Source: Aquipluma nitroreducens
GTDB taxonomy: Bacteria; Bacteroidota; Bacteroidia; Bacteroidales; Prolixibacteraceae
Reading direction: 5' to 3'
Length of the DNA: 64,000 nt
Assembly: GCF_009689585.1 (NCBI RefSeq)
Contig: NZ_AP018694.1
Location: 3,673,001 to 3,737,000 of the forward strand
The notes under the pieces are model-generated. The model had not been told where the DNA came from, made no database searches, and saw nothing but the letters and a program-made list of their open reading frames with translations. Numbering within the stretch: position 1 is the stretch's first letter; the number at the start of each line of letters is the position of its first letter. Below are positions 9,903 through 59,992 of this stretch, piece by piece. The position numbers and the translations under genes were made by a program.

Positions 9903-10226
9903 AATTTAGTATTAAATAGCCGATTGAACAGCAATTTGACACTTCAAAAGTATATAATTGTTCTGTTTAGCCTTAAAAATAGGCAAGGTATTTGGAAATC
10001 TTGCTTTAAAATACTGGTAAGTCAGGATATTTCTCGAATTTCGGAATTGTTTCGTCGGAGTTTTGTTTGTCGGTCTGAATGTGACTTTCTCTCAGCAAGA
10101 TAATTCACATTCAAACATGCGATGCTCATTTGCTTACTGGACCTTATTTGCTAGATTATAAAATTGTAAAATAAATTGCTCGTGATGTTCCAAAGAAGAA
10201 CGTAAATGAATTAAATTTGAAAGGAA
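9903..10226. other. Divergent intergenic region, no gene seen
   Basis: This 324-bp AT-rich spacer separates the divergently transcribed acyl-CoA synthetase and HD-hydrolase genes and must carry both promoters. No ORF, tRNA or strong hairpin stands out, and no convincing TTTG-N19-TAnnTTTG pair was found. Confidence 0.6.
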
Positions 10227-21937: not shown

Positions 21938-21957
21938 AGACGCACGATCGTGCGTCT
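21938..21957. repeat. Perfect 20-bp palindrome AGACGCACGATCGTGCGTCT
   Basis: A perfect palindrome in the xseA-xseB spacer, framed as GTA-C-palindrome-C-TAAC. A sister copy with the same frame (GTA-G ... T-TAAC) but a different centre lies between citE and citF. Confidence 0.8.
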
Positions 21958-52382: not shown

Positions 52383-52457
52383 GGGCGATTAGCTCAGCTG
52401 GTTCAGAGCATCTGGTTTACACCCAGAGGGTCGGGGGTTCGAATCCCTCATCGCCCA
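52383..52457 (+). tRNA. tRNA-Val (TAC), 75 nt, CCA not encoded
   Basis: Acceptor GGGCGAT/ATCGCCC, D arm GCTC/GAGC, anticodon arm TCTGG-TTTACAC-CCAGA, variable loop GGGTC, T arm GGGGG/TCCC-type with the usual TTCGAAT loop, discriminator A. The 3' half of this gene is repeated 343 bases downstream. Confidence 0.97.
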
Positions 52458-52499
52458 CAAAAAGTCATTCGTTTATTCGGGTGACTTTTTTATTTTTAC
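52426..52499. repeat. Direct repeat copy 1: tRNA-Val 3' end plus hairpin
   Basis: This 74-base segment spans the tRNA variable loop, T arm, acceptor 3' strand and the following terminator. It matches copy 2 at 52769 with two mismatches (A/G just after the tRNA and G/A in the hairpin arm). Confidence 0.95.
52458..52496 (+). terminator. Terminator after tRNA-Val
   Basis: AAAAGTCATTCG and CGGGTGACTTTT form a 12-bp stem with two G-T pairs and a TTTATT loop, then a T run. The copy behind the tRNA remnant keeps the same fold, with one G-T replaced by A-T. Confidence 0.9.
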
Positions 52500-52502
52500 A
52501 GT

Positions 52503-52763
52503 ATGTTTTACTGTTATATTCTATATTCCGAGAAGCTGGATAAATATTACATTGGTTCCACCTCCAATCTTCAGGGTCGACTCCAGAGGCATAATACTTC
52601 AAAAACAGGATTTACCTCAACCGGCAAACCATGGTCGTTAAAATATTTCGAGACATTTGAATTTAAGACTCAGGCACTGAAAAGGGAAATGCTCTTAAAA
52701 AAATGGAAAGATCGCACCAAGTTGGAAGAATTGATTGCATCAGGTTCAGGGCATCCCGGTTAG
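52503..52763 (+). CDS. GIY-YIG nuclease, small single-domain form
   Basis: 86 residues. CYILYSEKLDKYYIGSTSNL holds the GIY and YIG strands (Tyr5, Gly18), Arg26 lies in QGRLQRHN, and Glu62 in KREMLLKKWK completes the catalytic set. This is the UPF0213/YhbQ-like type. The last residues, ASGSGHPG, are encoded by a tRNA-like sequence and the TAG stop lies in its anticodon loop. The gene starts 45 bases after tRNA-Val and is bounded on both sides by copies of the tRNA 3' end. This arrangement suggests a mobile or homing-like element; whether it cuts tRNA genes is not shown. Confidence 0.88.
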   Translation: MFYCYILYSEKLDKYYIGSTSNLQGRLQRHNTSKTGFTSTGKPWSLKYFETFEFKTQALKREMLLKKWKDRTKLEELIASGSGHPG

Positions 52764-52800
52764 ACCGGGAGGGTCGGGGGTTCGAATCCCTCATCGCCCA
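52743..52800 (+). pseudogene. Partial tRNA (3' part only) overlapping the GIY-YIG 3' end
   Basis: From GGTTCAGGGCATC onward the sequence aligns with tRNA-Val without gaps to the discriminator. The T arm and acceptor strand are identical, but the anticodon arm reads TCCCG-GTTAGAC-CGGGA: both strands of the stem differ from tRNA-Val and still pair perfectly. The 5' acceptor and most of the D arm are missing, so it cannot be a working tRNA. The arm also forms a 7-bp palindrome, TCCCGGT-TAG-ACCGGGA. Confidence 0.85.
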
Positions 52801-52842
52801 CAGAAAGTCATTCGTTTATTCGGATGACTTTTTTATTTTTAC
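52769..52842. repeat. Direct repeat copy 2: tRNA 3' end plus hairpin
   Basis: The counterpart of the repeat at 52426, 343 bases away, with two mismatches in 74 bases. It carries its own terminator-like hairpin (GAAAGTCATTCG / CGGATGACTTTT). Confidence 0.95.
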
Positions 52843-52853
52843 GGGCTTTTTCA

Positions 52854-52945
52854 TTTCTATATTCCATTTTTTTTCGGGAAGCTGGATAAACGATTACATC
52901 CATTCCACCTCCAATCTCCAAGGCATTATAATCTTCAATGATCTT
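52854..52945 (+). pseudogene. Decayed second copy of the GIY-YIG gene start
   Basis: After repeat copy 2 the sequence continues with relatives of the GIY-YIG 5' end: TTCTATATTCC, GAAGCTGGATAAA, a run close to ATTACATTGGTTCCACCTCC, CCAATCT and a shortened ATAATCTTCAA. It has insertions and deletions, no start codon and no full frame. It shows that the whole tRNA-end/nuclease unit was once tandemly duplicated. Confidence 0.75.
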
Positions 52946-59972: not shown

Positions 59973-59992
59973 AGACGCGATGCATCGCGTCT
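59973..59992. repeat. Perfect 20-bp palindrome AGACGCGATGCATCGCGTCT
   Basis: It sits in the citE-citF spacer, framed GTA-G-palindrome-T-TAAC like the copy between xseA and xseB. The ends AGACGC/GCGTCT are shared and the centre differs. Confidence 0.8.

Follow-up and report, generated by a model that had tools for sequence, protein, structure and literature searches.

A standalone GIY-YIG nuclease gene and a short hairpin probably make up a minimal mobile element that targets tRNA genes, duplicates the targeted gene and so yields two tRNA copies, one of them intact and the other bearing the hairpin; we favour this reading, with appreciable reservations. It was prompted by a tandem unit at a tRNA-Val gene in a 64,000-nt stretch of Aquipluma nitroreducens DNA (the window). 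The observations behind it are the anatomy of the unit, its recurrence beside other tRNA genes, filled and empty versions of the same sites, a hairpin class that follows the nuclease, covariation in the hairpin stem and purifying selection on the nuclease.

In the window, a terminator and a GIY-YIG gene come after the intact tRNA-Val; then follow a remnant of this tRNA, the terminator once more and the beginning of a decayed nuclease gene (Table 1). A 133-nt direct repeat with a spacing of 343 spans the 3' part of the tRNA, the terminator and the nuclease start, and the copies of its 74-nt core show 2 mismatches, at 52460 and 52481 only. A previous inspection of the same DNA (the sequence-only reading) had described a tandem unit with a 343-base period, 74-base repeats differing at two positions and a decayed second nuclease, all of which the coordinates confirm. 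The segment between the two 74-nt repeats runs from three bases 5' of the nuclease start codon to the right-hand end of the hairpin TCCCGGTTAGACCGGGA (TCCCGG..CCGGGA). This hairpin takes the place of the anticodon arm in the remnant, so that tRNA sequence breaks off at position 28 on its left and restarts at position 45 on its right. The last codons of the nuclease extend into the tRNA remnant and its stop codon lies within the hairpin. On the simplest reading of the repeats, the tRNA 3' half and the terminator would be a target duplication, with the nuclease and the hairpin inserted.

Table 1. Features of the tandem unit at tRNA-Val, with positions in the window
Feature	Position	Strand	Basis
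Intact tRNA-Val(TAC)	52383..52458	+	ARAGORN; RF00005 71.0 bits
74-nt direct repeat, copy 1 (tRNA from anticodon-arm end onward, with terminator)	52426..52499	+	
Terminator-like hairpin, copy 1	52459..52490	+	
Segment of 269 bp between both 74-nt repeats, likely element	52500..52768	+	Inferred from repeat coordinates
GIY-YIG nuclease gene, 86 aa	52503..52763	+	ORF; PF01541 1.2e-16; AF2 model pLDDT 88.4
tRNA-Val remnant (D-arm piece, hairpin for anticodon arm, 3' half)	52742..52801, left edge approximate	+	RF00005 19.4 bits, below cut-off
Palindrome TCCCGGTTAGACCGGGA in anticodon-arm position	52754..52770	+	
74-nt direct repeat, copy 2	52769..52842	+	
Terminator-like hairpin, copy 2, matches copy 1	52802..52833	+	
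Decayed 5' part of an older nuclease copy	about 52846..52945	+	Repeat families D1-D3; ATG lost

TCCCGGTTAGACCGGGA is one of 5 palindromes of such strength in the 64 kb, and five shuffles gave 0, 1, 3, 4 and 2. Two perfect 20-nt palindromes of a single type (AGACGC..GCGTCT), at window positions 21938-21957 and 59973-59992, resemble CGTC-tagged REPs. The ORF overlapping the decayed second nuclease start had no Pfam match at E <= 1. No tyrosine or serine integrase was found in the window unit, where the GIY-YIG gene is the sole ORF with a Pfam match.

The unit is not a product of chance, as the same anatomy is present at a tRNA-Asp gene elsewhere in the genome (locus L001): intact tRNA, terminator, nuclease, an Asp remnant with TCCCGAAGGCTCGGGA in its T arm, and the same terminator. 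This genome (G000) has five PF01541 matches, of which one is UvrC-sized and two are small and have no nearby tRNA (L003, L005). At 27 nuclease-free tRNA loci of this genome no hairpin of the unit type was found except one terminator, in two overlapping loci. Genome-wide there are 26 TCCCGR..YCGGGA palindromes, 2 of them inside the two units and many others part of a different repeat, TCATCCCGAATTTATTTCGGGATCT; CCTGCCTG..CAGGCAGG had 0 matches.

The domain match (61.1 bits, cut-off 22.6), conserved residues, the AF2 model and GIY-YIG matches in Foldseek place the 86-aa protein in the GIY-YIG nuclease superfamily. Residues Y5, Y16, G18, R26, H30 and E62 are invariant in 20 relatives, and presumably include the GIY-YIG catalytic set. 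The closest solved sequences are UPF0213 (1zg2, 4.8e-14; 1ywl, 7.9e-13) and Slx1 (7cq2, 1.2e-8); the AF2 model (pTM 0.78) is nearest to 1zg2 (UPF0213) and 6seh (Slx1), with only 1zg2 below E 0.001. In sequence and fold the nuclease is thus nearest to UPF0213 and to Slx1, a branched-DNA nuclease. Assignment to the group I intron-type endonucleases (NCBIfam grpIintron_endo, TIGR01453) was rejected, at 19.5 bits against a cut-off of 56.05. Fifteen between-locus pairs had a finite, though in many cases saturated, dS and gave dN/dS of 0.05-0.23, and dS was undefined in 7 more pairs; tandem nuclease copies gave 0, undefined and 0.49. Judging from the low ratios, the nuclease is under purifying selection.

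Relatives were sought in 41 related genomes, in 197 genomes of the order, 102 of which gave a match at E <= 0.001, and at 80 named loci. Removal of duplicate loci reduced 294 hits to 257, and removal of those with short flanks left 217. A same-strand ARAGORN call within 450 nt, taken as the tRNA link, was present for 171 of the 257 distinct GIY-YIG genes, some of these calls being hairpin-bearing copies that are still accepted. Among close homologues (HMM E<1e-20, adequate flanks) the link was found for 138/160, 22 having no tRNA call, so that small GIY-YIG genes do recur near tRNAs in this phylum, as the sequence-only reading had stated, and tRNA pieces are indeed strongly enriched next to them. 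Seventy-six of the 80 named loci entered the table, 64 with a tRNA call and 53 with a mapped hairpin; among the organisms in the titles are Draconibacterium, Chryseobacterium, Flavobacterium, Pontibacter, Algoriphagus and Aquimarina, and some metagenome-assembled genomes are labelled Neomarinimicrobiota, Cloacimonadota, Ignavibacteriaceae or Patescibacteria, where contamination is possible. No relative was found in 50,697 phage records, 72,556 plasmid records and viral contigs; these collections therefore point to no vehicle for the unit, which counts against the element reading. Among the papers that searches of the open-access literature (preprints apart) turned up, none describes the nuclease/hairpin/tRNA arrangement in its title or abstract opening.

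Within 140 nt at the 3' end of the gene, 96 of the 138 linked homologues had a palindrome of any kind, compared with 245 of 2,760 windows taken at these loci as controls; for the TCCCG type the counts were 64/138 and 2/2,760. The other 42 linked genes had no palindrome in this window, and some carry one upstream. Close homologues without a tRNA call had any palindrome in 12/22 and the TCCCG type in 9/22; the corresponding counts for distant GIY-YIG genes were 10/18 and 6/18 with a tRNA call, and 4/39 and 0/39 without. A general palindrome background was rejected as the whole story: such palindromes are dispersed, but at the control frequency they are far too rare to account for the remnants. 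The same excess of the TCCCG type weighs against passive decay, in which the GIY-YIG gene would be a passenger, the tRNA a tandem duplicate, and dispersed REP-like palindromes would land in spare tRNA copies because nothing selects against it. We regard this explanation as unlikely, and it is taken up again below with the evidence that it would account for.

The position of the palindrome in the tRNA could be mapped for 136 nucleases, or 131 after removal of identical proteins. The anticodon arm is replaced in 59 (tRNA positions 26-29 to 42-46; 11 anticodon types) and the T arm in 27, of which 12 are Asp. A clean insertion at positions 17-22 was found in 11, all of them Arg and all of the CCTGCC class, and the remaining 34 palindromes are otherwise placed or match on one flank only. 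The exact 17-nt replacement of the anticodon arm in 59/131 is a second argument against passive decay.

Two mirror layouts occur. In the majority the order is intact tRNA, nuclease, hairpin copy, and elsewhere, for example at several Arg tRNAs, it is hairpin copy, nuclease, intact tRNA. The proposal that the element restores the 3' half of its tRNA target therefore fits one of the two layouts, the broken copy lying upstream and the intact tRNA downstream at these Arg tRNAs. Likewise, a remnant is left behind, as had been suggested, but its hairpin, which the sequence-only reading had missed, moves together with the nuclease and makes the remnant more than debris. The nuclease stop codon lies inside the TCCCG hairpin in 21 of the 89 units with a 3'-end hairpin, and the hairpin follows the stop in 61. 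Many nucleases (e.g. L230, 2501-2773) have a C-terminal tail EHPD(L), coded by the edge of the tRNA D arm and the first hairpin arm, so that the remnant makes the end of the protein. Tandem nuclease units were found at 32/217 loci, with spacings of 280-623. Arrays of pseudo-tRNAs with no intervening nuclease lie upstream of an intact tRNA at L060, L068 and L069, with five copies spaced by about 112 nt at L060 and three spaced by 89 nt at L069. At L060, on the minus strand before tRNA-Met, each of the five tandem pseudo-tRNA-Met has two palindromes, one in the D arm and one in the anticodon/variable region.

Hairpin class was compared with nuclease phylogeny on a FastTree of the 131 nucleases, a tree that is noisy because the protein is short. 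The classes were defined after inspection of the data, and 14/131 palindromes fit none of them, leaving 117 classified rows. On this tree hairpin class changes 7 times, whereas free shuffles gave a mean of 29.1 (minimum 26) and shuffles within tRNA type a mean of 13.0 (minimum 10), none of 200 reaching 7. For the 24 tRNA types of all 131 rows the tree requires at least 43 changes, against a shuffle mean of 97, the tRNA partner being the best-matching intact tRNA nearby, which may be misassigned in tRNA clusters. For 98/131 nucleases the nearest nuclease of a different tRNA type shares the hairpin class (shuffle mean 58.9). Among pairs at the same tRNA, mean nuclease identity was 0.530 for the same hairpin class versus 0.421 for different classes (within-tRNA permutation, 0/2,000), and inside single genomes a comparison of 13 same-class with 18 different-class pairs, which are not independent, gave p=0.003. 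One tRNA-Asp site carries unlike nucleases and hairpins according to species: TCCCGA in L001, L013 and L036, and TCTCGC in L056, whose nuclease is distant (33% identity to the window nuclease). This orthologous site was found by DNA comparison, a query with the neighbouring kinase having matched mostly paralogues. With at least 43 changes of tRNA and 7 of hairpin class, the hairpin must be carried along or rewritten at each move. Passive decay does not predict a class that is kept with the nuclease across so many tRNA switches; part of the tracking could come from units that are inherited whole.

Sites that are filled in one relative and empty in another were then compared. FolC, which marks the site of the window unit, was found in 20 of 23 genomes of the genus. 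G000, G009 and G011 have the FolC/tRNA-Val unit, and G021 has it at a contig edge. The close relative G017 (93% FolC identity) has at this site a single decayed nuclease copy with no remnant, and G016 a scar-like piece at a contig edge. No nuclease was found at the site in G002-G006, G010 (two loci), G012, G013, G019, G022 and the short stretch available for G018; G014, G015 and G020 were unreadable there. At a Gly-Leu-Gly site with 94-96% identical flanks, G000 has three intact tRNAs (empty) and G017 is filled (L048). The resident Leu(TAA) of G017 is broken in place, with TCCCGAGAAATCGGGA for the anticodon arm and a 30-nt palindrome in the T loop; downstream of it come Gly, an unbroken Leu copy, the nuclease and the 3' half of a Gly tRNA, whose T loop contains a near reverse complement of the 30-mer. 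Since the resident Leu is broken twice and the intact Leu stands beside the nuclease, loss of the unit might cost the cell this tRNA. At an Arg-CCT site, empty in G000 and filled in L016, L039 and L051, the upstream flank (80-82% identity) leads into the hairpin copy and the intact tRNA comes after the nuclease; the downstream flank does not align.

Presence/absence polymorphism at orthologous sites, a criterion for homing endonucleases, was thus observed at FolC/tRNA-Val, Gly-Leu-Gly and Arg-CCT. With tRNA enrichment beside the nucleases and empty sites in relatives at three tRNA loci, neither of the two outcomes that the sequence-only reading had named as counting against it occurred. In the cases compared, the remnant arm is replaced by a hairpin and the neighbouring intact tRNA is apparently unaltered; the element reading gives no account of how this intact donor tRNA escapes the nuclease.

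Palindromes of the unit type are also found away from these units, which counts against the element reading and for passive decay. In the 197 genomes TCCCGR palindromes gave 3,657 matches, versus 589 for the control pattern. One genome, G006, has 210 TCCCGR..YCGGGA palindromes, the maximum of the genus, yet no tRNA-type GIY-YIG gene. In G000 a tRNA-Gly at the end of an island has a palindrome in its D arm with no adjoining GIY-YIG gene. This island of ~9.2 kb (G000:C1:3353000-3364500; L367, 750-822 and about 10022-10110; also L364) has a 405-aa integrase-like ORF adjoining tRNA-Gly(CCC), and the D-arm palindrome lies in the far-end tRNA-Gly copy, with no GIY-YIG match nearby. On inspection of the list of palindromes, no GTAG or CGTC tag was visible. 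Genomes were also grouped by their A1 match, and the median palindrome excess per Mb was 5.0 for a strong match (59 genomes), 3.9 for a weak match (43) and 1.7 for none (95; p=1e-7, kinship ignored); this genome-wide link between nuclease and palindrome number is not relied on, since the units themselves supply part of the excess and G006 runs counter to it.

A second, independent GIY-YIG clade has dispersed palindromes of its own, which is again not what passive decay would predict. It comprises 7 genes (L014, L017, L018, L021, L022, L062 and L067; about 106-121 aa), all flanked within 600 nt by REPIN-like TCATSCYGAA..TTCRGSAT palindromes, which form inverted pairs, on both sides in 6/7, the seventh gene beginning at a contig edge. 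The motif was found at 0/191 close homologues, 0/59 other GIY-YIG genes and 0/30 RAYT-type loci, the last taken from 43 PF01797 matches in 6 genomes. It is dispersed in 16/23 genomes of the genus (24 copies in G000, 52 in G017), the control pattern giving 0 in all; as copies also occur in genomes with no observed gene of this clade, their presence and number are not simple trackers of the gene. The core TCCCGAA..TTCGGGA overlaps the tRNA hairpin core. By analogy, the second clade and its palindromes may be a GIY-YIG counterpart of a REPtron. A broader proposal, which we consider somewhat less likely than not, is that small standalone GIY-YIG nucleases drive a class of hairpin elements in which each lineage owns and writes its hairpin, one branch being locked to tRNA genes, where it swaps an arm and keeps an intact copy, and the other spreading REPIN-like palindromes without a RAYT.

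Pairing in the hairpin stem was examined in 106 distinct TCCCG(3-12)CGGGA sequences near the nuclease genes, with inner pairing not required. Pair 6 is Watson-Crick in 105/106 (shuffle maximum 86), and pair 7 in 72/78 (shuffle mean 33, maximum 45), where AT, CG and TA all occur; for pair 8 the count is 22/33 (shuffle mean 14, maximum 23). The spacer ranges from 3 to 10 and is mostly 4-7. Covariation and variable spacing speak for a hairpin or a cruciform, and would suit DNA and RNA alike. A duplex site of fixed spacing for a nuclease dimer is disfavoured because spacers vary from 3 to 10.

Such a stem could also be read in RNA, and the hairpin-bearing tRNA might be a functional RNA (antitoxin, decoy or 3' regulator) of a nuclease acting on RNA or tRNA, roughly in the manner of a type III toxin-antitoxin system, where repeated RNA precedes a terminator and a nuclease gene. 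The covariation with a few G-T pairs, the pseudo-tRNA arrays placed before an intact tRNA, terminator and nuclease at L060, L068 and L069, and an L015 remnant that is still an ARAGORN tRNA call are in keeping with such a partnership. We nevertheless find it improbable: most loci have one or two remnants at most, many of them truncated, the broken copy stands before or after the gene, the relatives in sequence and fold are DNA structure nucleases, and G-T or T-G makes up only 3/6 of the non-Watson-Crick pairs at position 7. Membership of the type III toxin-antitoxin systems proper, with their ToxN-type endoribonuclease, was rejected, the nuclease here being a GIY-YIG protein nearest to UPF0213/Slx1.

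SegB of T-even phages is a free-standing GIY-YIG homing endonuclease near tRNA genes (PMC13096335, in the part of the text available). In that text it lies beside tRNAs of many isotypes, and recombination amplifies the tRNA-segB segment in tandem, in which it resembles the present units; SegB, however, is carried by phages and amplifies a tRNA that is intact, whereas here the genes were found in chromosomes and the spare tRNA has a hairpin. That the units serve the host by SegB-like amplification, raising tRNA dosage for example against tRNA-cutting defences or toxins, is very improbable despite this precedent and the tandem units, as the amplified copies are mostly disabled by the hairpin and bring no dosage gain, and the units come and go among close relatives.

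Returning to the nuclease-hairpin element, the mobile unit would be about 270-400 bp long and consist of a standalone Slx1-like GIY-YIG gene and a short hairpin belonging to that nuclease. On entry into a tRNA gene it would come to lie between two copies of the tRNA, usually with copies of the terminator as well. One copy would stay intact, so that the cell survives. In the other, the hairpin would replace or interrupt an arm, which is the 17-nt anticodon arm in most cases and the T arm or the D/anticodon junction in the rest. We infer that the nuclease may recognise the hairpin as a cruciform, a single strand or an RNA hairpin, that its cut may start the tRNA duplication through recombination, and that each move would write the hairpin into the newly targeted tRNA. 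By analogy, the unit may work like a homing or integrating element restricted to tRNA genes, and the pairing of nuclease and hairpin recalls REP/RAYT.

Known systems share some of these features. REP/RAYT systems (REPtrons, CGTC REPs; PMC3733652, as far as its accessible text goes) also combine a nuclease-type gene with short dispersed palindromes, and the second GIY-YIG clade appears to be laid out similarly; they differ in that the RAYT is an HUH tyrosine transposase and the enzyme here GIY-YIG, none of the 30 PF01797 loci having the REPIN-like motif, and the tRNA-bound form has no counterpart in what that text describes. Tyrosine-integrase elements likewise insert in tRNA genes, where the tRNA stays intact at one end and a displaced piece of it marks the other. 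The present unit has no integrase or cargo and one gene of 80-95 aa in about 270-400 bp, its displaced copy bears a hairpin, and mirror-image layouts occur. Its nuclease consists of one small domain and is closer to UPF0213/Slx1 than to I-TevI, a further difference from SegB. The UPF0213 and bacterial Slx1-like standalone GIY-YIG proteins are the closest in solved sequences and folds; a link to tRNA genes or hairpins was not found in the portion of the superfamily survey at hand (PMC1564403).

If the element reading is correct, a nuclease-hairpin element of about 300 bp would join the known mobile elements of bacteria, and a recurring, unremarked type of broken tRNA gene would be explained. 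The poorly understood standalone Slx1-like GIY-YIG proteins would gain a substrate and a biology, and the tracking of hairpin with nuclease predicts a matching hairpin for each nuclease. The same mark carried through at least 43 changes of tRNA partner would amount to a natural target-switching experiment, and dispersed palindromes that have no RAYT may, as these results would suggest, have a GIY-YIG partner.
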